A DNA stretch of 64,000 nucleotides from the NCBI GenBank assembly GCA_035235625.1, contig CP141143.1, positions 41,525,178 to 41,589,177 of the forward strand, written 5' to 3'. The translations under genes were made by a program, and so were the position numbers. Within the stretch, counting starts at the first letter, position 1, and the number at the start of each line of letters is the position of its first letter. Under the pieces are notes generated by a model. That model saw nothing but the letters and a program-made list of their open reading frames with translations. It was not told the origin of the DNA and made no database searches. This DNA is from Saururus chinensis (Eukaryota > Streptophyta > Magnoliopsida > Piperales > Saururaceae). Positions 2,688 through 40,200 of the stretch are shown here, piece after piece.

Positions 2688-3429
2688 ATAAATCCATGTA
2701 TATTTCCCTTTCTGTCCTTGTGCTTTAAATGAACAGCTGCAAGCTGTTTGACAAAATGTCTCAGCAGCACATCAGTGCTGAGATTTGTCCTACATCTTCT
2801 TGGCTCATTAAAGAGTGTGTCTTATTGGAAACATGCTGGGTTTCCACATGGAAGTCCTATATTATTTTACCATGTTACATAAACTATAAATTATATACAG
2901 TATATCATATTGGCATTGACTTGTGGAATCATAAACAAAGCCATGTTACTGATTATATATCATTTCCTATATTATTTGTTCAGTTTTTAAAATATATTAG
3001 ATCTTTATTCTGGTCCTTCACATCTCTGGCCTAATTACTCGACCTGAATGCAACTGACTCATTTGTCTTCTTACTCAGGACATGATGACAAACATGGACT
3101 CACTTTCTCACTCTCTATGTAGTTCTTTTGAGCTTCCATAGCTGGTCTTTTCTTTGCATAGGAAAATGCCTGGTGACCATGTTTGGCTGTAAATCCATTT
3201 CGTATCACCCTTCTTGCACTTCAATGGAATTTATTATTGAGGAAAAAAAATCATTCTTGTCGCAACTAAGCATCAGTTGTCATCATTTAAGCTTGGAATT
3301 TTTAGATCCTACATTGTAATGCATGCAGCGTGTTTGCCTTACTTTTTTTTTTCATTATGAATTCTCTTTGAATGCTAAAAGGCTTTATGTTTGATTAGTC
3401 GTTTTAAGTAGTTATATATTTTATTCCAG
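2688..3429. other. Intron sequence, nothing recognised
   Basis: AT-rich sequence between the gypsy LTR and the first visible FMT exon, ending in a normal acceptor (TTATTCCAG). It contains short unconserved open frames only. The conserved upstream FMT segment that precedes RYVHNN is absent here. Confidence 0.6.
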
Positions 3430-4235
3430 GTACGTACACAACAACATATTTTTTAGTTTTGCTGTGGATGCCGACCTTGGCCAGATGCCAAAAAATAATG
3501 CTTTGAGTGTTAAAGGAAAAACATATGTAGACCTGAAACGTCCGGAAAGCACGAGTTTTCTAGATAACTCTTCAGAAATACATTTGGGTGGTGAAAGTGA
3601 TAGCGGGCCTGAGTTCCATAAAATAGGCAGCTTCGAAATAGAGGAGCATCAACGGTCCACAGATGTGCTATCTAATATGAGCCCTGAGGCGCAGGTCGAC
3701 AGTGAACAAGCAACATATGCATCTGCTAACAATGACCTGAAAGGAACAAAAGCCTATCAGGAAGCTGATGTGCCTGGCCTCTATAATCTTGCTATGACAA
3801 TAATAGATTACCGAGGACACAGAGTGGTTGCACAGGTATGGACAACATACTTTTTGTCCTTTTTTATGAGCTGACCACCTGTTAGTTGCCTCCTACTGAA
3901 TGGTCCTCTTTTTGTGTCAAGAGTATCATACCTGGTATTCTGCAAGGAGATAAATCGGAGTCTCTTCTATATGGCTCTGTTGACAATGGGAAAAAAATTT
4001 GTTGGAATGAAGCATTTCATACCAAGGTATGGTCTTTGAGTTGTTTTCTCTTAAATATAATGGTTTCCCTTCTTACAAACTCCTATGTAATGGTGTTAAT
4101 TATATACTTCTAACAGGTTTTAGAGGCTGCAAAGCACCTTCACCTAAAGGAACACACAGTCCTTGATGGATATGGAAATGCCATAAAATTAGCAGCACCC
4201 GTTGAATGCAAGGGTATTGTTGGAAGTGATGATAG
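3430..4235 (+). CDS. FMT: FMT exons a-c (CLU region)
   Basis: Three exons (3430-3835, 3922-4026, 4117-4235) are separated by introns of 86 and 90 bases with GT-AG ends. The first begins within a codon, then [16 protein letters not shown], followed by a variable acidic Ser/Glu-rich stretch, and ends in YRGHRVVAQ. The second reads [11 protein letters not shown] then [16 protein letters not shown]. The third ends in [15 protein letters not shown] plus the first two bases of an Arg codon. These are the conserved blocks of the central CLU region. I found no upstream exon between 2688 and 3429, so the previous intron runs at least to the gypsy LTR at 2112-2687. Confidence 0.92.
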
Positions 4236-7200
4236 GTGATTACTTATGGAAGGCTGAGTTTATTTCTTCATTTCTATTATTTTCCTTCTTCCTATCATAC
4301 TAGTTACATGTGAAATTCTAATTATTCAGGGCTAGACGTGTGTAGCTTTTAACTTATTATATAGATTTCTGACTGCGTCTGTCCTTTAATGGGGATTTTT
4401 TTCTACAAATGATTGTTCATCTTTTTATTGTTTTTTTTTATTCTCTTGACTTCTGTTATTTGCAGTTGATGATTAGTTTACTGGTTGCAGTTTTCCTCGT
4501 CCTTGTACATTTGTTGCATAGTTTAATGGTTAACCATCTACCCAATGTTGGCCAATGATTAGGGTTAGCTTATTTTGAGAGATCACATTTGAGAGGCTTA
4601 TTTTAGATAATTATTTATTAACAATTAATATATGCTTGGTTACTAGGATATGAATCTAGATGTAATAATCCAAATTTTAGTATCAATTTATATAAATTTG
4701 ATGAAAAACAATACTGGCATTCAGTAGCTGTGTTGGGCTTATTAGAGGATAAGTCCCTCGTGAAGGGGAGTTGTCCACCACCTGAAAGTGGACATTCTAA
4801 GCCTAGCTAAAATTTCTTCTTCCTTCTACATGAAAGTTTGTTAAATCTCAGTGAAGAATTATCATTTCCAATTGGACGACCCATTAATTCAATTGGAGGA
4901 GAATTATAATTGGATAACTATTTTTGATTTTCACTGGAGACTGGGAATTGATGGGCTTTCTATAGGACCCATTTTACTGACAGGATTCATCACTACTTTA
5001 GCTACCTTAGCAGCCTGGCCGGTTACTTGAGATTCGCGATTGTTCTATTACCTGATGTTAGCAATGTACAGCGGTCAAATAGGCTCATTTTCTTCTCGAG
5101 ACGTTATACTTTTTTTCATCATGTGGGAGTTAGAATTAATTCCTGTTTACCTTCTTTTATCTATGTGGGGGGGAAAGCGCCTTTACTCAATGGGTATCAA
5201 GGCATTGGCCAATCGATCATGTTATTGTAGTTGCAGATGCAGGCCAGAAACCATTGAATATGAATATTGTTCAAGGTCAAAACGTGGTGGGCAAATGAAA
5301 CAACTTAGAGACCATGTTTTTATCATGAATCTGATCTATATTCAATGGTTTCTGGCCTTCACCGTTTGCTTTTGCAACAATGCCTGGAATGTCTGAGATT
5401 GCTTACCTTTGTGTTGGAGCTGGAGTTTGTGGAAGCGTTGTTCAAGGGAGCAATTGATCACATTGTAGCCTGATTTTTCAGTCCGGATTTTTCTGCATTT
5501 GGACTTATCACTGCGAGACATTTCTAAATAGGATTCTAGTGAGCGTGAAAGCTCTGGGGAACCTCTCTTATGCTGGTAAAGTCTCTTTAGTGTCTCTTTT
5601 TATTCCTCTATTATAAGCCACTTGAATCCTCTTATTCTTCTTTGCATCTTTGAGAGAGAACTTTCCCTTCTGCTTGGTATTGGTGAGAAAGTACTTGTAA
5701 CAATCCTTGTACTTGCTCTTGAAATTAGCAGATTGATTTTGGGCGAGGTTGCCTTGGTATCCCAGTAATGAATGTTCCAATTATATTAAAAAAATAATTT
5801 CATTGATACTAGGAAATATCCCTGACAAAATTTAACATTACTATGAAACTACTTGACTAAGAAGCTAGATTAGAATAAGTGAATCTACTAATCTGGCTCT
5901 ATTTAATTATAAAGGAGATGGTTCATAACGGAACTATACTTGTCTTTGGAATCTGGATGTTCGTCACCAGGGAAGACAATGATCAGTGATTCAAAGGAAG
6001 GCAGGGGAAAGGGAAGAGATAGGAAGGGAAGATCGATAGGTTGCGTTGGAGTCTGCACCAAGGGTGGGTTTTGCTGGAGTGCACACTGCCCGGAGGAGGG
6101 CTTCCAGAGTGCACACTAGGAGTCAGAGTTTTCACAGTGGAAGGAAACAACCTTCAGAAGTTGTCTTCAATAACTAGCGTAATCTATTCCTTTAATAAAA
6201 TTTGAGGCCTTTAAGTGGGTGTACATAAAGGTCTTTAAAAGAAGTTTAGTTATAATGGCAACCAGGATACAATCTCGTAAAACTCTTAGGAATAAAAATC
6301 TAAACTTATCCTACTAAAACTAAATTTCTGTAAAGTAGTAGCATTTATTTTAGCTTCGAACTCCTAATCCATATAAATTCCGAAATAAGCAAAGAAAAAT
6401 TTAAACATCTAGGGTCAATGTCTTGTGTCTGCATCAAGGGGAAGGAAATGGGGTTTAGGGCGGGGGAGGAGAAAGGGAAGGATGAGAATGTAAATATATA
6501 ATTTAGAGAAGAGGGAGAGAAGAACAAATAACAAGACTATCTATGTGTTCACTTACGTTTTTGGAGGCATACATTTGCTTATACAGGCTTAAAACTTATT
6601 CCTATTCTAATTATAATATAAGTTCAAGTCCTTTTGCAATTACAAAAAGAATCTTTTTAAGTTTCCCATCTTAATTTTAATAATACAAATTACTAATTCT
6701 AAATGCCCTGTTGGCTGTCATTTTTTCATGCTCCACCACTCTTTGCCCTTCAGATGTGTAAGTAGAAAACCATTATGTATATTATGTTCCTCCAAAATTG
6801 TCAAGAATTGCATCATCCTCAATAAGGAACACATGCATTGACTTGCAATTGTGCTCTCAGATTCTTTGCTTCTTAGGCACTACATGCTTATATGCATCAA
6901 TTTTGTAAGGATGGTATTAAAATTCTCGATGCAACTGGCTCAAAGCAGGGGTCAGCAAATTCTTGCCTACACATAGAGGGGACCCACCTTATATGTTGCC
7001 TAAAGCCTGTAGATGTCCTTCTGATAATGTAGCATCTTCTAGTAGGCAAAAAATGCTCTGGAGAGTTTTGGAAAGCCCGGGCATGTAATTTAGGCTTGTT
7101 GTGGGGCTGCAGGGTTCTCTGGATCCTCATACATCTCTTAACTCGCCCTAAAATGATGTGGGACTGACTTTCCAGGTCAGTTGTGCCCTCTTGGCCCTAT

Positions 7201-10200: not shown

Positions 10201-13200
10201 TATACCTAATTGATGAGATTCTAGTGCTTTTGAGGCATTTGAGGAGTTCCCTGCATTGAAGGGTGCCTTGAGGCTTTCCTCAAAATGCTTTTAAAGACAC
10301 GGTTCAGAGCAAGATGCACTTACGAAAGGTGACACCTTGGTTAAGACCATTCTTATACTACCTTGGTCTGAGGATAATGTCCAATTGTATAGTATATATA
10401 ATAAGGCCCGTATATGAAACAATGTGGACCACATGGTAATGGTTTTGTTTCCTTCTGCACCAGGATGAATGAATGTTAGCGGGTGTGTGTCAAACAAAAT
10501 TGGTGTCTTGAATGATTCTGGCCTTGCTAATGCAGGATTCTCTACCACCCCTAGAGCAAGTCAAACCGTATGCTGCATATGGCCACCCCTACAAGTGTAA
10601 GCACGTGGAATACTAGTCTTTGCCTGGCTGGTACCTTCTGCTGGATACACGTGGGAGCATACTATTATTGCCCGTTGACAGAAATCCTGGTGCTGCTAGG
10701 TCTTACTGGTTCAGTGACCCATCAATGAGAGGAGTATGTGAAACAAGTAAGCACCCAATTTACTAGGGAAGTGTTAATGGATGTAGCATATGGGTGCTCA
10801 ATGCTCACACACAAGCTTTTTATGGTGCAATTCTTTGGCACTCCTGTGCCATCTGATGTTGTCCAGCATGGAGTAACTGAATCACTTGTCCAGTGGAGTA
10901 GAACCAGCCACTAAAGCTGCTACGTGCCGTACCAAATGGTCATCTCACTGGACCATCAAGCTCAAGAAGGGTCTTTAAGTGCTGGGAAATGCATTGGGAA
11001 TATGCCATGGATGCACTGGGCTTCCTAAAACGTTCTCCAGTAGTGGCCATTGGATGTTGGCTTATTGATGTGTGATTGACATTACAGGTGAAGTATGAGA
11101 GGGCCATTGCACTAGGTTTTGACATGGTGGTTGGGGCATGCTTCCTGTACAGTGCTAGAGTATTAATAACAAAGTTATGTGAAACTATTTATAAATTACT
11201 CTTATTTCTTGTGACCCATGTGTGCTCCCATGGGTCATAACATTATTGTAATGAAAGAAATTGTGTTTTGTAGGCAGTATGGGGGTGATTAGAACCAAGG
11301 AATGAAATATCTTAGATATACCTGAGAGAGACATTTATTTGCCCCTTAACCAATAAAAGATATTGTGGAAGAGGATATATCCGCTGAAATATCTCAGATA
11401 TTGCTGATAACTGTCCCATTGAAAAAAGATCAGTTTTTCCCTTAAATCTGTCACCGAATATTATTTATATTTTATATGGCTGAATTCATATAGCAGAGCA
11501 TTGAGAAATAAAAGCAGAAAACTGATTGTTGCTCATGTAAAACTGTTGCAAAGATAAAATTCCGTCCATCTTTTGAGCAACAATCCATCTACTATCCAAC
11601 CTAATAACCCTGCTAGTGCCAACCTTTTCTTTCATCAATGCATACCACTACCATAGCCATCATTCTTGCTGCCATGCCCTTGCCATTACCACAGCTGCCA
11701 TGGCATACCCTACCACCACCATTGCAACAACTATATGGTAGTTGGATGCTTGGCTGGTAGAATGGATGGTATTCTATCTGTATGGCTATTTTTGGGAACG
11801 TGAATCAATTTTCTGCATTCATTCTCAAGGTTGTGTAATATGAATTTAACCATAGGTGATATAAAAATTGTTTGAGTTTTGTATTAGTTTCTAAATCTTA
11901 ATATATTCTTAGATTATCAAGATCTATGTTAAAAGGCCGTTTTCAGTCACTGATATCATTTTCGCCGATATATCTTCATAATATGCTACCTTTAGGTTTG
12001 CTATCTTCAAATCATGTTGCCAACTATGATTTGAACTCTTTTTAAGTAAGGCTATCATGTATTTTGAAGAATCTAGTGAATGATTTAAGTTAATTTCTCT
12101 CTCTCTCTCTGTTATGACCCATTTAGAAGACAGTTAGGAATAGTTTATTTTATTAATAGTTATGTAATTAGGGAGTTATTTGTAATTTTTATTTAATTGG
12201 TGATAATGAGCTTTTAGGTTAGTGTTTAAGCCCGTTTAGGAGTTCTATTTAATGTAAGGGCTACGCCCTAATTTTAATTAGTGAATGAATTAGTCTTTTG
12301 GTTATCCTTTTCTTCCCATCGTCTGAACTAATCTATTGTCCTCATTTCCCCCCTTTCATCCAAACCCTTCTCTCAACCCTAATTCCTTGTTCTCTTCGTC
12401 TGGCCTTCCCTATCATCACTTCTCAACCCTACAATTTCCTCCTAATATTCACCCATAGATCTAACGATCTACAAGATTGGTATCGGAGCCGTTCTTCCTG
12501 GAAATTACCATTGCTACAACTCTATTTTTTGAGATGTCAATCACATGGCAATTGTCTGTTGTGAGGCAGCAAGATGACCAGGCACTTGTCCATGTTACAA
12601 ACAGAGACTGGATTCACTCGCACTTCAAAGTTTAATTTTCTCTCAGTGGCAGATTTCTGGCTACTGATAGGCATGATCGCAACAGGGCAAACTATTCCAA
12701 TGTCGAGGGCCACTCTGTAGCAAGTTTCCCATTTGATCCCGGGGGTAGTCCTCTAGTGGATGACCACTCATCAAAGGGCCTTTCTGGAGCCCCCACCCCC
12801 ACCCCCACCGAAGCACCCACCTGATAACCCTCATCAGTGGCCTTCTTGGCGAGGGAGAAAGAGATGGCGGTCCGGACCTTCCTCGCCGAGAAAGATCTGC
12901 TGCCCTGCAATGGATAGCATGCCGGGCACAGGATTGGGCTCTTCCTCCTCCCGTCGCTGCTTAACGTCAAGAAATCTGGCCACCTTCCGCTCTTGCAACT
13001 GTGAGCAATACTAGATTTGCTTCGGGGCAGTGGTCAGGATCTTATGAGATTTTCTTTCCCCTCTGGTTACGATTTACCTAAATGGAACATCACTGCAATT
13101 CAGTGAAATCTTCAGCGGCAGGAATTTTGCTAGAGAAGACTTGGTGGAAAATTGGCTCTTCCTCGGCCCAAATTTCGGCTCTGGCTATTGGTTGGAGGGC

Positions 13201-16200
13201 CCCAGGATCATCGCGATCTTCTCGTCTCAGTGCAAATTGCCCAATCTGGGATTTCCCCTCTCCCATGCTATCTTGACGTGAGGATTGGCACTCTCAGCGC
13301 CGCTATCAACTTCATCCAGTGCCAATCGGGATCGGTTTCAGGACCTTGTGATGATGCGGACGTTGACGGAGGCCCTTAACTCGGGGCAGGAGGCGCTTGA
13401 TCTTCGGATTGAACTTGCGGGGACCGGGATTATGAGGAAGTTGCCACATTTCATCGGAAGGTTGTTTGAGATCCTGATCAAGATGCTGTTGGATATAGAG
13501 GATGATCCCGCTTTATTACGGAAACTGAGGATGAGGATGCCGGGGAGTCAAGTAATTACAGGGTGGGGCATTCTTTCTGCAGATTGTTTTATTTTTAAAG
13601 GTGCGAGGGCAACCGATGGAACAACTACGAGAGATGGTTCTGGAAACTAGAAACTGGAAACCAGGACAGAACACTTTGGTCGATAAATTTGTTCTAGCTA
13701 TTTTACCAAATGGAACCCGGGTCTCATAAATTCAAGTTGGCCCAACAACTCAAACCCATTTTCTTTTGGAATGCCTCCAGCCCGGATACGCCTTGCTCTA
13801 AGATCTATCCAGCTTTGTCTTTTGAATTTCATAGAGCGGAGCAATAGTGGGCCCGACTACCATATTTTCTTGAATTTGTTTGCTCTCATCTACGACCCAA
13901 GTGCTCGGTATCACCTCGAGGACGAGGTGACGCGGAAGAGTGGTGGAGTGTTATGACCCATTTAGAAGGCAGTTAGGAATAGTTTATTTTATTAATAGTT
14001 ATGTAATTAGGGAGTTATTTGTAATTTTTATTTAATCGGTGTTAATGGGCTTCTAGGTTAGTGTTTAGGCCCATTTAGGAGTTCTATTTAATGTAAGGGC
14101 TACGCCCTAATTTCAGTTAGTGAGTGAATTAGTCTTTTGATTAATCTTCTGGTTATCCTTTTCTTCCCATCATTTGAACTAATCTATCGTCCTCATTTCC
14201 CCCCTTTCATCCAAACCCTTCTCTCAACCCTAATTCCTTCTTCTCTTAGTTTGGCCTTCCCTATCGTCACCTCTCAACCCTACAATTTCCTCCTAATATT
14301 CACCCATAGATCTAACGATCTACAACACTCTCTCTCTTATTTCTTGATGTTTTTTTCATCTCTCTCTAAGTCTGTTCCCATTATGCCCAATTTAACCCAA
14401 ATGTGGCCTGTTCACATTAGCCAGCTATCTAAATCGGTATGATTGAGAAAATAGTCAAATTAGGCATAAGTGGATGAGTCTTGTTACCTGTCCTATAAAA
14501 GTGTGCTACTTAATTCCACATGTACAGTGGAACTTGGTCGTAAACATTATAAAGCTTGTGGCTTGGTTTTGCAAGTTGAATAGTTTCTAGTTATAAAATA
14601 GTAGAATTGAAACATAAAAGAGTTGTGGCATTTTTTGTCACAATCTAATGGTTTAGCACAAAAGTAAAATGATGTATCTGTTAGACTAAAGAGAAATGAA
14701 TCCATTAAGAATACCCAATAAGGATATTTTATCATTATCATGATATATGCCTTTCCACAACTATCTTGTGTTTGCAATATGGATTTCATATTACTATTCA
14801 AGTTTTAGTTCAGTCAAGAGGATGATGCAGAATACATTGTGAGAACATAGTGGCAGTTCTTAAAGTCTGAAGCCTTTCCTGTAACCATCCAAGAAGGAAA
14901 TATTGTAATCAAGTTCCATAATGAATATTATAGTCATGTGTGTTTCCTACTTATTTAGGGTTGGCTTGATGAGTGTGAGAAAATATTGATATCTTGCAAT
15001 GCCAAGTTGGCAACAAATCAATCAGTTTGCTTTGTACCCTGAAACCATGACAAAATACATGAAAGTGGTGCATAGTGTTCAATACTTTAGTAAATTATGT
15101 ATTTCATCTTGACCGTTCAGTTTGTGAATACTGTAGATTCTTTTTGTCTAACCATGTATACTACTTTTGGCATTTAGTCATTATGTTTCCTTGTTTATGG
15201 TATTCTTAATATAGACACTGTAATTTCCTGGTCTCTACTGTTTGTACTTCAGTCTATAAATTTCTGATCAAGCATTGGACACATTATAATTTCATATATC
15301 TCACTTGTGTTTCATTTTCATTATTACCAGGCATTATCTTTTAGACTTGATGAGGGTAACACCCAGAGATGCCAACTACAACGGTCCTGGCTCTCGTTTT
15401 TGTGTTCTAAGGCCTGAACTTGTTACTGGTTTTTGCCAGGTTCACTTTCTTGGAGTCATGGGCAAGGTTTATTAGTTGGCACTTTTTTGTGATTTTCTTA
15501 GATATGGTTGTTTTTGTTCTTTATGAAATGCAGGCAGAAACTGCAGAAAGGTCCAAATCTTTAACAAATGGAAAGGTTCCATTAGTATCTGATTCTGACA
15601 GGGGCACTGGTGTTGAAACAAACGAAAATGTTGAGACTGTTATGTGTTCAGAATCCAAGGTATTCCGATGGTTGGAATTTAATTGTTTAAATGAGGTCTA
15701 TTTTCATACTAGTACAATACATCCAATATATGGATGCTACCTTGTGTTTCTAGAAGTTCCTTTCATTTGCTTCTATTAACAATATAAAAAGGACGGCCAC
15801 AAGTCTGCAAGGCAAATTGTTTATGAATTAAAAATATTATTAATGTTTTTTTACATAGGTAGTGTAATGCAGAACAATCTGAGTATAAAGGTGAAACGGG
15901 GGAAGAGGGACTTGTATGCTGATTTTTCTGATTTTTTTTTATAAATTATAATAAATACTAGTTTGTGGTCCTCAAAATTGATGTGGTTATCTAATCCGTT
16001 TTAATATCATCAGGGCTTTTATTATAGTATGTAAATTTATTAGCCAGGTATCTGACAGTTGTGGCATTTATTCTGTTTGCAATCAGCAAAATTGATGTGG
16101 TTATCTAATGGGTTTTTATTTCATCAGGGCTTTTATCAGTCTAAATTTATTAGCCAGGTATCTGGCAGTCGTGGCATTTGTTCGGTTACTTGTATGCGTA

Positions 16201-19200
16201 TCTCGGCCAGGCCATGTTATTGCTTGAGCCTCCTATGATACAAAGGCATTCATGTTATGGATCATGTGTTATATAGACTATCAGCCTATCACAGATTTTC
16301 AGTTCAATGTACACTTTGTAATTGTGATGGATAACTTTTATCACATAGTTTAGCTGGTTGACTATACTTCCTTTTCTCCTTTTACCATGACATACATAGA
16401 TCTTGTTATTAAATTAGTCCTCTAGATGGACTGTTTTATCTGATCATGTGACGGGGTGTGGGTGAAGATGGACAGAAACAATAATACAGCAACATACAGC
16501 CAACAAAGATTTATATTCGAACTGTAAAAAGGAAAATGAGAGGAAGAAGATGACTCATCTCTATTAATCTTCTGAACAAACAGGGTGTTACAAGCTTGAA
16601 TCCACAAGCCAAAATGACAAGATTACCCTTCCCATTTGCACTGACTAAAAGGCATAAACAGAAATGCCCCTTTGAACCTTATGAAAGAATAAGCAGCTGG
16701 ACATGCTGTAAAACAGAATTCAATTATGTTCATCTGTGACAATCTGTGACAGGCTGAAAGGATTAAAGTATACCTTTGCATTAGTCCCTCCCTCCTAAAA
16801 GAAGCTTGTCCACAAGCAAGAAGGCTTGTGTGCCAGCAGTTTTTGGAGAGATTGGACTAAAATAAGTGGACAGATCGGAGACATTGAATGCCTTGGATAT
16901 GTTGTAATGAGCAGGGAGGTCGACCATATTGATGCATTGCAAAATCTGAAATGGACCTACTTTCTGTGGTGTGAGCTTGTTGTGGTGGCTAGCGAGACGT
17001 CTTTCCTTCATAGGAAAACCATTACATAATCTCCCACTTGAAACAATTTTCGCCTTCTCTTTTTATCAGCTGAGACCTTGTATTGAGCTATGACATCAAG
17101 TAAACGTTGCCAGACTACTTGATGGATGGAAATCAAGTCTTGAACTGTTTTATAAGCTGTGGTTGGTTCTCCTAATTATTTAGGCAGCTGAACTAAAGCC
17201 ATTGTGCGGCGGGTAGGAAACCCATATAAGAATTCAAAAGGTGCTTTGCTGGTGGACTAGTTGGGTGTGGAATTAAAGGCAAATTGAGCTTATGGAAGAA
17301 CTAAGTCTCAATACTTAGGAGCATCACCCGTGAGGCTTCTCAGCAGGTTTCCCAAAGTTCGGTTAACCACTTAAGTTTGGCCATTACTTTGGGGGTGGGA
17401 AGTGCTACTGAATTGTAAGTACCCAATCTCATCTATATTGACCGCTAAAAGTGACTTGAAAACTTGCTGTCCCGATATGATGTAATCGACTTTGGGAATC
17501 GATGAATTCTCACTATTTCTTTGAAGAATAGACCAACTACATGCGAGGCATCGGTTGCCTTTTTATATGGCACAAAATGAGCCATTTTCAAGAACCTATC
17601 CACCACCACAAAGATAGAATCCACCCTCCTTTGAGTCCTAAGCAACCTAAGGACAAAATCCATAGAGATATCATCGTAAGGCCGATAGGGAATAGGTAAA
17701 GGGGTATAAAGGCCGGTATTTTGTGAGGTTCCCTTGGCTTGTTGGTATGTATAATAATGCTGAATAAACTGTTAACCGTCCCTTAAAAGAGTTTGCCAAT
17801 GATACCTTGCTTTGAGAAGTGCAACAGTTTTATCTTTGACAAAGTGTCTAGCTAGTCCACTATGCAATTCCTTAATAAGTTGTTGGCCGTTAGAAGAAGA
17901 GGGAATACACAGCTGATTACCTTTGTATAAGTAACCTTCCATAAGATGATAGTCTTGGACTGGCTAGTTGCTTTGAGAGCATAACCCCCGAATGTCTCAA
18001 GCTCTTTGTTATTGGGTAGAGTACTTTTAAGCTGTCAAAACCTATGTTTTCATTCCTCAAAGGTAGTGAAAAGGGCCACCTTTCAACTCAAGGCATCAAC
18101 TGCCTTGTTCATTGTGTCGGACCTACGCTTGATAATAAAGGTATAATCTTGTAGCTCACATATCCACCTAGCAAACAACTTGTCCACCTTTATTTGACTT
18201 TGCAAGTGCTTCAATGAATCATGAGTCATGTGGAAGACAATGTTTTTAAACACAAGGTAATGCCTCTAATATTTCAAGACATGGATCGAAGCAAATTATT
18301 CCAGCTTGTAGGTTGATGATTTTCTCCTTGCATCATTCAGCTTGCACTAAAATAGGAGATTAGCCTTCCCTCTTGTGTTAAGATAGCCCCTGTGCCCACT
18401 CCGGATGCATCACACTCAACCTCAATGATCTTGTTAAAATCAGGGAGGGCAAGCACCAGAGCTTGAGTTAGTTTTTCTTTCAGCTTTTCAAAGCTATCTT
18501 GAGCTTCTTGGGACTACACAATGCCGGCTTTTTTCATACACTCAATCAAAGGGCATGCTATGGTGAGAAAATGCTTCATAGATCGGCGGTTAAAGGTGGT
18601 CAAACCTTGAAAACTGTGCACCTCACTTGTTGATTTTGGTGTGGGCCAATTTTGTATGGCTTTTATCTTGAATACCTTTGGAACTGATCACATACCCCAA
18701 AAACATTGGTGAAGAGGAACACTCTTTCAGATTTATGTACAAAGAATGATGTTAGAGCACTTCAAAAATTTTGGCCCGTTGTGCATGTTCTTCACCTTTG
18801 TTATGTACTAATATGAGTCTCATGATGGTACCAGGCACTTTAGATAAGCCAAAGGGCATCACTAGCCATACATAGGGGCCTTCTCTTGTCTTGAAGGCTG
18901 TTTTCCACTTATCCCCTGGCCTTAACCTGATTTGGTGATATTAACTTTAAATATCAATCTTGGAGAAAACGGTGGCGCGGGTCAACATATCCAATATATT
19001 ATATAGCTTAGGTACTGGAAACCTATACTTTAAATTAATTTTATTAATAGCCCGGCTATCCACGCACATCCTTCTAACTCTCATTGTTCTTGGGCTCACT
19101 AAAAAGGCCGGAACCGCGCATGGACTAAGTTTCTCCTTGCCCCTTGTGAGGTCTATTTGATGCTAAATTTCCCTTGTGAGGCAGCTCCAATGGGAGTTCT

Positions 19201-31200: not shown

Positions 31201-34200
31201 TGTTTTGGTGATGTTGTAGAGAGTAGGGAGATAAGCCACATATGCATTGTCAATAATTTATTGTAAAATCTGAAATGGTCCTATCTTCTGAGGTGTGACC
31301 TTGTTGTGGTGGCTAGCAGGGAGTCGTTTCTTTTGTAGGAAAACCATAACATAGTCCCCCACTTAAAACAGTTTTTGCCTTCTATTTTTGTCAACTGAAG
31401 GCTTGTATTGAGCTGTGACATCAATCAAATGTTGCCGGATTGCTTGGTGGACTAAAATAAGGTCTTTGAACAGTTTTGTAAGTTGTGTTTTAACTCTCCC
31501 ACTTGTTTATGCAGCTGAATCAAATCCAGTATGTGGCGGCGTAGGAATCCATATAGAATTTTAAATGGTGCCTTGCTAGTGGACCTGCTTGGGATTGAGT
31601 TATAGGCAAATTCAGCTTGTGAAAGAACCAAGTCCCATTGCTTAGGGGCATCACCTGTGAGGCTTCTCTGCTGATTTTCCAAAGTTCAGTTGACGACTTC
31701 AGTGTGGCCATTACTTTGGGGATGGCAAGTGCTATTGAATTGTAACAAAGTACCCAATCTCTTCCATATTGACCACCAAAAATGACTTAGAAACTGGCTT
31801 TTCCTATACGATGTAATCGACTTTGGCAACCCATGAATTCTCACTATTTCTTTTAAGAATAGAGCTGCCACATGTGATTAGATGCCTTTTTACGTGGCAC
31901 AAAGTGAGCCATCTTTGAAAACCTATCCACCACCACAAATATGGAATCCACCCTCCTTTGAGTTCTAAGTAGCCTTAGGACAACATCTATAGAGATATCA
32001 TCCCAAGGCCACTAGGAATTGGTAAAGGGATGTAGAGTCCGGTATTTTGTGAGGTTCCTTTGGTTTGTTGACAGGTATAATATTGCTAAATAAACTGTAG
32101 AACATCTCTTAAAAGAGTTGGCGAATAATACCTCTATATGAGTAGTGCAATAGTTTTATCTTTGCCAAAGTGTTCAGCTAGTCCCTCACTATGCATTTCT
32201 TTTATAAGCTGTTGGCGGATAGAAGAAGAAGGAATATACAACAGATTACCCTTGTACAAATTTCCTTCCACAAGATGATAGTCTTGGACCGGTTAGTTGC
32301 TTTGGGAACACAACCCCTAAATATCTCGCAGCTCTTTGTCGTCAGGGTAGAGCTCTTTTAAACAGTCAAAACCCAAGTTTTCAGTCTTCAAGATAATGAG
32401 AAGGGCCACCATTTGACTCAAGGCATTAGGTGCCATGTTCATTGTGCTGGACCTATGCTTGATAATAAAAGTATAATCTTGTAGCTCACATATGCACTTC
32501 GTAAATAATCTGTCTACCTTTGTTTGACTTTGCAAATGCCTCAGATCATGATCATGTAAGACAAATTCTTTAGACACAAGGTAATGCCTCTAATGTTTCA
32601 AGGCTTGGATCAAAGAAAATAATTTCAGCTTGTTGGCTGATCATTTCCTTCGAGCATCATTTAGCTTTGCACTCAAATAAGAAATTGGTCTACCATCTTG
32701 AGTTAAAACAGCCCCTATGCGCACTTTAGATGCATCACATTTAACCTCAAAGGTCTTGTTAAAATCAAGAAGGGCAAGGACCCGAGCTTAAGTGAGTTTT
32801 TCTTTCAAACTGTTCAAAGCTATTTTGAGCTGTTGGGGACCACACAAAGCGGTCCTTTTTCATACACTCAATCAGTAGGCATACTATGGTGTTGAAATGC
32901 TTGATAAATCGGCGGGAAAAGGTAGCCAAGCTCACTAGCTGATTTGGTGTGGGCTAGTTTTGTATAACTTCTATCTTACTTTTGTCTATTTGAATGCCTT
33001 TGAAACTGACCACATATCCCAAGAATATTAGCTGGTTGGTGAAGGAGCACTTTTTCATATTTATATACAAAGAATGATGTTGGAGCACCGAAAAAATTTT
33101 GGCCAACTGTTGTGCGTGTTGCTCCTCACCCTTACTATATACTAGTATGTCATTAAAATAGGCCACAACTGATTTGCCTAAAAATACTTTAAAAACATCG
33201 AGTCATGAGCCTCATGAAGGTACTTGCAGCATTAGATAATCCAAATGACATCACTAACCATTCTTAAAGACCTTCCCTTGTCTTGAAGGTTGTTTTTCAC
33301 CCATCGCCGGGTCTCAACCTAATTTGGTGATAGCCACTTTAAAGATCAATTTTGGAGAAAATAGTGGCACCAACGAACATGTCCAACATATCATGAAGCT
33401 TAGGTATTGGAAGCCTATACTTGATAGTAATTTTGTTAATAGTTCGGCTATCCACGCACATCTTCCAACTCTTATCCTTCGTGGGCACTAACAAAGCCGG
33501 AACCGTTCATAGACTAAGGCTCTCTTTAATCATTCTTCTTACCAAGAGGTCTTCTACTTGCCTTTGCACTTCAACATGCTCAGTTGGGCTCATGGTATAG
33601 TGTGACAAATGTGGGAGGCTAGAACCCGATATTAGGTCTATTTGGAGGAGGAAGAGTATAATTTCTATTGACATTTTTTGAAAATAGGGATCTACAAGCT
33701 TGAATCCACAACCTAAAATCTTACAGAAGCATAGGAAAACAGGGTTGAATCTACAACCCTAACTTAAATCCATGAGCCAAGAAGATGCAATGAAACAATT
33801 ACATTGAACTTTTTTGAATCCCCTTTCTCTCTTTTACCCTGCCTCTTATCTCCACCAGACTAACCGCTTCTGACATCCTAACAAACTGTGACCCAAAAGA
33901 CTGTTTTACCCCTCCCCTTGACACAAGCAGGGAATTAATTAATGAGTCGGACAATTCTGCTCCTTTTGGCCTCAGCTGGAGTATGAACTGTACAAAGCTG
34001 TAGAAGGACTGAATTACCCTCTCTACATCAATTACCCCCTTCTGCTTTTATGATTGAAGATGTTTTTGTTTCATCCAGATGGGTAGAGCCTTCTGCATGT
34101 ATAATCAATGTATTTAGTCTGAATATTTCCCACCTTCTGCTTTTATTTACTTAGTTCCAGCTGAGTATCAGAGCCTTCCATAAATAGGTGAAGAAATCTG

Positions 34201-37200: not shown

Positions 37201-40200
37201 TGAAAAAAATGGAATGGCTATCTACCACAATCCTTCTGAAGGCATTTCTGGGTATGAGAGATGACATCACCAGCGTAATGGCACCTTACTCACCAGACAA
37301 CCCAGACCAAGAGAAGCCACAGTGAGTGACATAGATTATCTAGGTTGGAGGTGGTGATGGCGAGAAGATAAAATTTATAAACATTAATACTACCATAAAA
37401 CATAGAGGAATTTACTTGTAAGTCAACATGGAAAATTTTGCATATCTTCAGTCTTTTTGGCTTTTATGCATATGTTCAGGTCAATTCTATGATATCTTAA
37501 AATTGTCATAATGATATTATGGAATTGTTTTGATGATTTCATTGAATTCTGCAGCTTTGACCTGAGCAGATGTAAACCCCCTTCCAAATTACCAAATTCT
37601 ACAAATATGTTACTTCTTGAAAGTTTATGCTAAATAAAAAGAGATTCATGATTAATTAGTAAATGGATAACAATACAAAAGTTTCCAATTATTATTGATA
37701 TCTTCACCACGAGTGTTAATTCACATTTGTGTCTCTCTATGATGTACTACATAGTACAGACATAGAAGGGAATAACACATTAAATGTTGAAACTATTAAG
37801 TACTGTACTGATTGTATATGTAGCATCTAGCAAGAGAGGTACTAATTTCTAACACCGAAATTGACCAAAACAATTGACTACTTCCTTGGAATTTTTTCTG
37901 GGACTGTCACTGAGGTCTAAGATCTTGCCAAGACCGCAAACCCTGCCTTGAAATTTTGCAAGCAAATCCTGTCACTTTGCAATTGGCTCATTTAAATTAC
38001 CATTACACTACTAGTTCGTATTTACTAGAGGACACTCCATTGGTATATTTCCAGCATGCTTTCTAGCTGTCAATTTTTCAGATGCAGACTATATATTTTT
38101 ATTGAAGCAATAAAATTAAGTTGGCTTTAGCTAGAGGGATATGGTGAGAGAAGCTACCTAAGCTTTCAAACGTGTGGAAGATTACCGAGATCAGACTCAG
38201 TGAATGGAGAAAATTGTTTACTTTGTGTATTGGTGAGCATGGCCTGGCAAGTTGAAAATATTTGTCCTATCACAGATGATGGAGCAGCTTGACTCTGTCC
38301 AACTACTGTAGTGTGCTTATCTACGCATGTAATCTTATATTATATAGCCAATTGTCAAGATTCAAATCTGAGTTCTGATCTCTTTTGGTACTCTTAATTG
38401 TCTTTGGAAAATCTTTTATTTTTTATATTTCTTGTTTGAAATAGAAAATTGTTTTCTTTAAACATCTAATTCTTTTCAATCTTCAGGTACCTTGCTATGG
38501 TGCTATATCATGCCGGTGACATGACAGGGGCCATAATGCAGCAGCACAAGGAACTAATCATAAATGAGCGATGCCTTGGCTTGGACCATCCTGACACTGC
38601 ACACAGGCATAAATTTTCTCTTTGAGATTTTCCATATTTTGTTACTTTCTTGGCATCGCTCAAGAAATATGGACCACTTATCTCTTGCAAAATTTCATGC
38701 AGCTATGGTAACATGGCCCTCTTCTATCATGGCCTTAATCAAACAGAACTGGCACTACGTCATATGTCTCGGACTTTACTCCTCCTTGGTTTATCGTGTG
38801 GTCCCGATCATCCTGATGTTGCTGCAACATTTATTAATGTGGCAATGATGTATCAAGACATCGGAAAAATGAATATTGCATTGCGTTATTTACAAGAAGC
38901 CTTGAAAAAAAATGAGCGGCTTCTTGGAAAGGAGCATATTCAAACGGCAGTTTGTTATCATGCTCTAGCCATTGCCTTCAACTGTATGGGTGCTTACAAG
39001 CTCTCTATCCAGGCAAGTATCTCTGTCACTTAGCAATATTCATTTTTATTCCCTGTTTGATCCAATATTTCTGTTTGACAGCATGAGAAAAAAACTTATG
39101 ATGTACTTGTGAAACAACTTGGGGAGGAGGACTCAAGGACACGTGATTCACAGACTTGGATAAAGACATTTCAAATGCGTGACCTTCAGGTACATATAAA
39201 ACTAATTACATTGTGAATTTGGGATGTGAAGGTTGCCTTGCTAATTTTTGTTTGTGGGTCCTAGTAAACCAAAAATCTAGATGATATTAACCCTAGGAAA
39301 GATGTTCCGTAAATAGAGGCAAGCTACAAAGCACGGAATTTCAATATAGGCGCAGTATGTGTCGTATCTGTATCATATCCATATTTATATTGGATATGGC
39401 TGCCTCTGTGTGCTGCCTTTGATATCACACATTAATTATACATTACTTCATCAAATCCTCTCTAAGTAACGTGAACATTAAAGAAATACTGTATGACTTC
39501 GAAGTATGTACTTTCCGCCCAAAAGATCTAAGTAAAACTGTTTCAAACTAATATATTACTCTTATGGGATAACTTTCCCTGCGAAAATGAGGTATTTGTA
39601 ATTACATTTCAGACATATAGCTACACTTTTTATTATAATTAAGCTTTTTAATATATGAACTAACTGAGAATATACCTAAAAATAAATAAAGATTAGTATT
39701 TTAATATACTCATCCCCCGTATCATATCTTGATTTTTTTAAAATTGCTCTATCGTCATACCCGTATTGTATTGTGCCCGTGTTGTGTATCTGTATCTGTG
39801 CTTCCTTGGAGTCAAGTGATCACCATTAGTTGTTTTGAATGCAATATATTATGTCCTACATGGACAACTGCAGAAGCGCATGGGATCATGTCGGGATGTC
39901 TAGATGGTGTAGAGCAGAGAAGAACATTGATTTCTGAATTGAGAAAGAGGTTTCATTCTTGAATCCACAATCTTCCTTTGAATCCCTGAAGGATTTATAC
40001 AGAAAATTGGAGCTGAATCCACAGCTCTGGCTCAAGTCCATGAGCAAAACTCTAACAGAGATTTTTCTGAATTTCAAATTTCACACTCCTCTCATCCCTC
40101 CACCCACCTATTTATAGACTCTCCAAACAAATCGTAACTAACTCTGACAGCAACTAACTGATTATATACAAGTGATAGAAATACCCTCCTTTATACTAAT

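Follow-up and report, generated by a model that had tools for sequence, protein, structure and literature searches.

An LTR element of Saururus chinensis that most likely received its importin-5 passenger from a second LTR family

A decayed piece of importin-5 (IPO5) coding sequence lies between the two long terminal repeats (LTRs) of an element at positions 12110-14327 of a 64,000-nucleotide stretch of the Saururus chinensis genome (assembly GCA_035235625.1, contig CP141143.1; here the window, C4:41525178-41589177), sense-oriented in the predicted intron of a gene whose exons carry CLU and TPR domains. An earlier note, made from the letters of the window, had described it as an LTR element that captured a host gene. 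Comparison with the source assembly (516 Mb, 11 contigs) confirms that observation and supports the interpretation in part: the importin-5 passenger is there, and it most likely arrived second-hand, since its 5′ seam recurs in seven other copies.

Results

The LTRs of the window element differ by 19 substitutions over 367 columns (Kimura two-parameter distance, K2P, 0.054). The 3′ LTR begins with TG and ends with CA; the 5′ LTR ends with GA instead. The word CTCTC flanks the element on both sides but lies inside a CT-rich low-complexity tract and is therefore weak as a target repeat; among copies whose flanks were printed, clear target repeats are ATCAT in E2 (L037, on C8), CCAGC in L016 and TAAAT in L023. 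Just 3′ of the 5′ LTR, at 12478-12490, stands TGGTATCGGAGCC, a putative primer-binding site (PBS) of the Met-tRNA type. As the earlier note had it, no recognised retrotransposon gene is present: a Pfam scan of ten interior frames found no gag, reverse transcriptase, RNase H or integrase domain, and returned two weak rows below cut-off, Importin_rep_4 (E 0.073) and the unrelated bDLD1 (E 0.18). The same four domains gave no Pfam match in 20 frames scanned from relatives, a part of all their frames; a Foamy_virus_ENV row in one L016 frame (E 0.15, 10.2 bits against a cut-off of 27) is taken as chance. On the frames scanned, the element is thus not an autonomous Ty3/gypsy element. Nor is it a terminal-repeat retrotransposon in miniature, in which LTRs and interior span only a few hundred bases; here they measure about 370 and about 1470. 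It does have dispersed copies, as LTR retrotransposons do (at least 46 match rows in the genome), and it holds host coding sequence between its LTRs in the manner of maize Bs1.

The identity of the passenger was settled by the host gene. Proof from the window frames alone, through Pfam and two PDB searches that found no importin, failed. The decisive match is to a locus here called gene A (L038, C10:20858500-20862500), whose long exon carries TPR_IPO5 (1.3e-43) and Importin_rep_4 (3.3e-26); its exon 1 stops at 2267, where GT follows, and the coding sequence continues at 3073, just behind AG, giving a first intron of 805 nt. Element positions 1166-1317 (window 13275-13426) match this exon at 77.5% (E 4e-44) and positions 1315-1461 (window 13424-13570) at 93.4% (E 5e-62), and a whole-genome search with IPO5 exon 1 recovered both pieces (3.3e-39 and 2.9e-57). 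A paralogue, gene B (C4:17853670), shares 79% identity over exon 1 and has its intron at the same point. The passenger aligns to positions 565-751 and 893-1043 of exon 1 of gene A, its donor. The earlier note had placed the decayed importin-5 correctly and assigned it to three frames; there are two, one with DVRIG... and TETEDEDAG... and the other with LTEALN... and MRKLPH... (open reading frames starting at 13134, 13506 and 13282).

A search with interior 12774-13600 gave 53 match rows over several contigs. The search for further copies that the earlier note proposed finds longer IPO5 pieces at 19 places besides both genes and the window copy, and short pieces alone at a further 16, with LTR context read at some of these loci. 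To that extent the passenger belongs to a widespread family, a circumstance that the earlier note had counted against its own reading. Two further observations concern importin-5 pieces elsewhere. L047 (C10:36838000-36840000) carries a gene-A-like piece (exon-1 positions 828-997, 89%) without the segment X described below, and N-terminal exon-1 pieces occur at C8:14206085, C5:4633724 and C6:31963102, two of which end 3′ at position 515, perhaps a further capture.

In all five relatives that were aligned across the border (L037, L042, L043, L044 and L036), exon 1 is joined to exon 2 and the 805-nt intron of gene A is absent; the joining continues through exon 5 in L043 and L044 and through exon 4 in L036. 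Because of these joined exons, the importin-5 sequence is, as far as alignments can tell, a capture from spliced RNA. The internal gap in the window passenger, from which the earlier note had argued for an RNA intermediate or a later deletion, carries no such information: its 144 nt (exon-1 positions 751-894) fall inside exon 1, and we reject it as a joined intron. An RNA origin stands nonetheless, on the evidence of the relatives.

Two of those relatives also hold pieces of other host genes. Downstream of importin-5, the copy at C10:11808484 (L043:2560-3621) has a RAD23-like stretch from which five donor introns are absent; Pfam finds UBA above its cut-off (1.4e-5) and ubiquitin below it (4.4e-4, 20.4 bits against 25.4). 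The donor (L064, on C4) has six exon blocks with GT/AG at their edges by eye, and in the passenger these blocks directly abut one another. The terminal exons of L064 give Pfam matches to ubiquitin (1.7e-9) and UBA (1.4e-11). The copy at C10:637429 (L036:2703-3308) has a PPR-like piece, below cut-off at 1.2e-4 (22.6 bits against 25). Two host genes, and perhaps a third, thus contributed cDNA to this lineage. Absence of introns would equally be expected had a LINE made a processed pseudogene of importin-5 that was then taken up as a DNA-borne retrocopy, and the N-terminal pieces on C6, C8 and C5 show that separate importin-5 pieces exist. However, importin-5, RAD23-like cDNA and a PPR-like piece in one lineage, all internal fragments, are better accommodated by repeated switching onto RNAs, and we consider the LINE route improbable.

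The ends and the middle of the window element have different relatives. The whole-element search (40 of 694 candidates scored) gave, apart from the window element itself, rows confined to element positions 1-724 and 1457-2218: none of the 45 covers 725-1456, and BLAST at finer resolution against 20 loci (L009-L028) yields a single further match, of 37 nt, at 739-775 in L013. Set side by side, these copies (family A) agree at their ends but fall into several types in the middle; in the middles, the frames scanned from L009-L028 gave no Pfam match below E 0.1. The middle of the window element, on the other hand, is colinear with that of E2, at 83, 77 and 85%. Against the LTR and tail of the window element, E2 shows only three short stretches of similarity, of 139 nt (75.5%), 43 nt (81%) and 50 nt (78%). 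The LTRs of E2, with ATCAT at both borders, differ from each other at 37 of 345 columns (K2P 0.117). Upstream of importin-5 in both elements lies a segment, X, in which Pfam finds no domain in the several copies scanned; X occurs with LTRs of a second kind (family B) and without importin-5 in L030, which ends before the seam, and in L033, where the sequence retrieved shows such an LTR on the 5′ side. Both seams of the window element fall on words common to the partners, ACCTTCCTC (8 of 9 in L030) and GGCA. From these comparisons the window element is a chimera, with ends from the non-autonomous family A and a middle of X and importin-5 from family B.

Family A appears modular in its own right, with reshuffled middles (for example L009, L017 and L018 against L013 and L019). 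Two of these copies, L017 (C9:21.006 Mb) and L018 (C9:20.918 Mb), have printed flanks that agree on both sides and look like a segmental duplication rather than two insertions.

In each of the eight copies aligned (the window element, E2, L042, L043, L044, L036, L045 and L046), the junction of X with importin-5 falls on the identical base, position 565 of exon 1. Among 13 X copies read across this point, a subset of the X rows from the interior search, 11 share one continuation, which we read as the empty site, and L051 and L060 carry importin-5 pieces; the word GAC is present in empty and filled sites alike. Because seven other copies have the same seam, and in E2 at least the flanking LTRs are clearly of another kind, the window element most likely did not take IPO5 directly from the gene. 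Had it done so, straight from host mRNA and independently of family B, its closeness to gene A (13 of 296 sites differ) would be expected, as would the finding that none of its 12 sites differing from both genes is common to E2. Yet its seam is identical to the base with those of the seven others, with X upstream, and a second capture at the same base beside the same X is unlikely. We give direct capture very little credence.

In six of these eight copies the passenger changes along its length from gene A to gene B. At sites where the two genes differ, scored up to exon-1 position 637 and again from 642 (L051 was left out past about position 733, where it is misaligned), the window element is A-like throughout (9/9 left, 46/47 right), as is E2 (11/13, 133/141). 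The other six are A-like on the left and largely not on the right: L042 13/13 and 6/146, L043 11/12 and 10/152, L044 13/13 and 9/152, L036 12/13 and 9/126, L045 12/12 and 4/27, and L046 12/13 and 5/43. The best single split falls exactly at 637/642 in four of the six mosaics, at 723/726 in L043 and at 657/668 in L045. In each mosaic none of 10000 shuffles reached the observed split; the corresponding numbers were 3331 for E2 and 10000 for the window element. This change points to recombination inside the homologous passenger, and an A-like left with a B-like right is what recombination between a passenger of X and gene A and a gene-B cDNA would leave. The 5′ end of the mosaics might instead look A-like because gene B itself acquired changes in that part once the capture had taken place; that gene B has changes of its own is seen at 676 and 1347, where every scored copy is likewise A-like. 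However, sites A-like in all scored copies make up 11 of 13 left of 642 and 2 of 166 right of it, and A/B differences are spread along exon 1 (10-22 per 70 nt in positions to 1190, the two blocks concerned having 12 and 14), so that a change in gene B is a very unlikely source of the pattern.

A second form of gene-B passenger shares a common 5′ breakpoint (query 319) at nine loci (for example C9:9407318, C5:44633599, C10:3188619 and C6:1830108), four of which also share a 3′ end at 1006-1007. One copy of this form, L058, starts near gene-B position 879 and has derived sites in common with the mosaics, which makes exchange between elements no less plausible than a switch onto gene-B mRNA. The gene-B sequence of the mosaics may therefore come from that mRNA or from another element that had captured gene B.

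Substitutions in the passengers are spread over the codon positions. Against gene A they number 4/3/6 at first, second and third positions in the window element and 22/19/25 in E2; against gene B, from 642 on, they number 17/17/25 in L042, 24/24/35 in L043, 27/29/27 in L044 and 29/30/33 in L036. Between genes A and B the counts are 30/10/139. By this measure the passengers show no coding constraint. The distance to gene A is 0.044 in the window element and 0.088 in E2 (66 of 754 sites), and half the LTR distance is 0.027 and 0.058, respectively. A separate, younger capture for the window element was considered; numbers this small do not separate it from the capture seen in E2.

The surroundings of the element bear out the earlier note, which had placed it in the intron of another host gene: same-strand exon regions lie on either side (Table 1), and the nearest exon to the right, 15332-15439, has no Pfam match and is assigned to the CLU gene by eye. 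The insertion likely has no effect on the host, and nothing points to a function for it. Elsewhere in the window, the frame at 5031-5393 (+) resembles a subunit of plastid NADH dehydrogenase (Proton_antipo_M, E 0.0013, short of the cut-off) and is perhaps intronic plastid DNA. Three stretches on the minus strand (16784-17771, 30-305 and 32320-32589) look by eye like remnants of Ty3/gypsy polyproteins; Pfam backs 16784-17062 alone (SH3_Tf2-1, 4.9e-10).

Table 1. Parts of the window element and exon regions of the surrounding gene (window coordinates)
Feature	Position	Strand	Basis
Host-gene exon region upstream, CLU domain	3395-3871	+	Pfam CLU 1.3e-17
5′ CTCTC, target-site-like repeat, 5 bp, weak	12105-12109	.	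Sequence, LTR comparison
5′ LTR, family A	12110-12476	+	LTR pair; further genome copies
Family-A 5′ leader	12477-12884	+	Many copies match as far as 12773 or 12833; L013 and L019 have one more short match, up to 12884
PBS-like TGGTATCGGAGCC	12478-12490	+	Sequence
Seam from family A to X, word ACCTTCCTC (8/9 in family-B copy L030)	12876-12884	+	Sequence comparison
X, interior segment of family B, without Pfam match in copies scanned	12876-13274	+	Genome comparison
Seam from X to importin-5, word GAC common to empty site and importin-5	13275-13277	+	Same in 8 copies
Importin-5 exon-1 fragment, gene A origin	13275-13570	+	283/296 columns identical; deletions of 14, 6, 15, 144 and 4 nt
Seam from importin-5 to family-A tail, word GGCA in both	13567-13570	+	Sequence comparison
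Family-A 3′ interior tail	13567-13948	+	Genome comparison
3′ LTR, family A	13949-14327	+	LTR pair
3′ CTCTC copy	14328-14332	.	Sequence, LTR comparison
Host-gene exon region downstream, TPR	38626-39030	+	Pfam TPR

Discussion

The explanation that we consider probable is that a family-A element had its middle, X with importin-5, swapped in from family B by template switching, after an earlier capture of importin-5 from spliced RNA. In the order of events that we infer, spliced RNA of gene A would have entered family B early, joined to X at a common word of 3 nt. The middle of a family-A element would then have been replaced by X and importin-5 through two template switches as co-packaged RNAs were reverse transcribed, with proteins supplied in trans to the non-autonomous element. 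The resulting copy would have integrated into the intron of the CLU-domain gene and decayed there, and in other copies the passenger would later have recombined with cDNA of the paralogue, gene B. The LTR distance of the window element, lower than that of E2, agrees with a transfer to family A at a later time, although LTR ages are rough.

Several observations weigh against this explanation. Among the family-A candidates scored, only the window element holds importin-5. It contains no exon junction, so that the comparison of exon junctions with the same-genome gene, suggested in the earlier note, is unreadable in the very element for which it was meant. B-type LTR-like sequence stands beside only four of the six mosaic copies, on the 5′ side only and at 69-86%, and L045 and L046 were assigned through X and the seam alone. 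In addition, the X sequences of the ten carriers do not form one clade among 22 (approximately unbiased, AU, test, p 0.006), in a test for which the carrier group was chosen after a first FastTree tree and the label of L030 as a non-carrier is uncertain because that copy is cut before the seam. X and importin-5 would therefore have been reshuffled, and the path to the window element was not simple descent; the window element and E2 as one X clade are not rejected (p 0.10).

Ectopic recombination or gene conversion between integrated copies could yield the same chimeras at the level of DNA, and the A/B mosaics as well. The reticulate X tree fits such events, as does the presence of dispersed copies similar enough for conversion, and the A/B change, lying in long homology, is compatible with either route. 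The window element, however, is bounded on either side by an LTR of a single family and by a 5-bp repeat (weak as this is), and its seams lie on common words of 4-9 nt rather than in long homology. We therefore regard an origin through DNA-level events as unlikely, if clearly less so than the LINE route.

We propose, tentatively and with more doubt than conviction, that a passenger of this kind acts as a homology handle, through which element RNA recombines with the RNA or cDNA of a paralogue, such that passengers are overwritten and passed between LTR families by RNA-level exchange among dispersed copies and genes.

It is informative to set template switching between the families, the explanation favored here, beside known systems. 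Capture of host genes by LTR elements is familiar from maize Bs1, which holds pieces of three host genes (PMC13317346). The lineage described here is alike in having pieces of several host genes in an LTR element (importin-5, and RAD23-like and PPR-like pieces in relatives); it differs in the genes concerned and in showing one passenger between two kinds of LTR, in two paralogue versions and at one seam. Captured genes in LTR elements number 672 in rice, 1,343 in sorghum and 424 in maize in a survey (Jiang and Ramachandran 2013, PMC3726574) that likewise describes host genes between LTRs, many of them decayed, and ranks PPR with the domains captured often; its main text as available makes no use of the words "template switch", "intron" and "importin". 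VejuL and BARE2 are chimeras of two different element RNAs formed through abnormal template switching (Sabot and Schulman 2007, PMC1950507). The piece exchanged there is not described as a host gene, whereas the piece exchanged here includes one.

In avian sarcoma viruses, src has been recovered from its cellular counterpart in the host, and there too a remnant of the passenger served as homology for renewed uptake of host sequence. That virus was under selection, unlike the plant passenger, which is without coding constraint and involves a paralogue. In our literature search no report was found linking importin-5 with LTR retrotransposons, a weak negative that does not rule out prior art, and no paralogue mosaic in a captured gene was recognised, a negative drawn from listings and equally weak. 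At base the window element is thus of a known kind; its unusual parts are the transfer between families and the switch between paralogues.

Within this single genome, the donor gene, the joined exons, the empty site, the seams on common words, the spread of the passenger, its transfer to another family and its change of paralogue can all be read. Should that change have involved host mRNA, retroelements would be able to reshuffle the coding sequences of paralogues through homology, an outcome that a model of one-off capture does not foresee.

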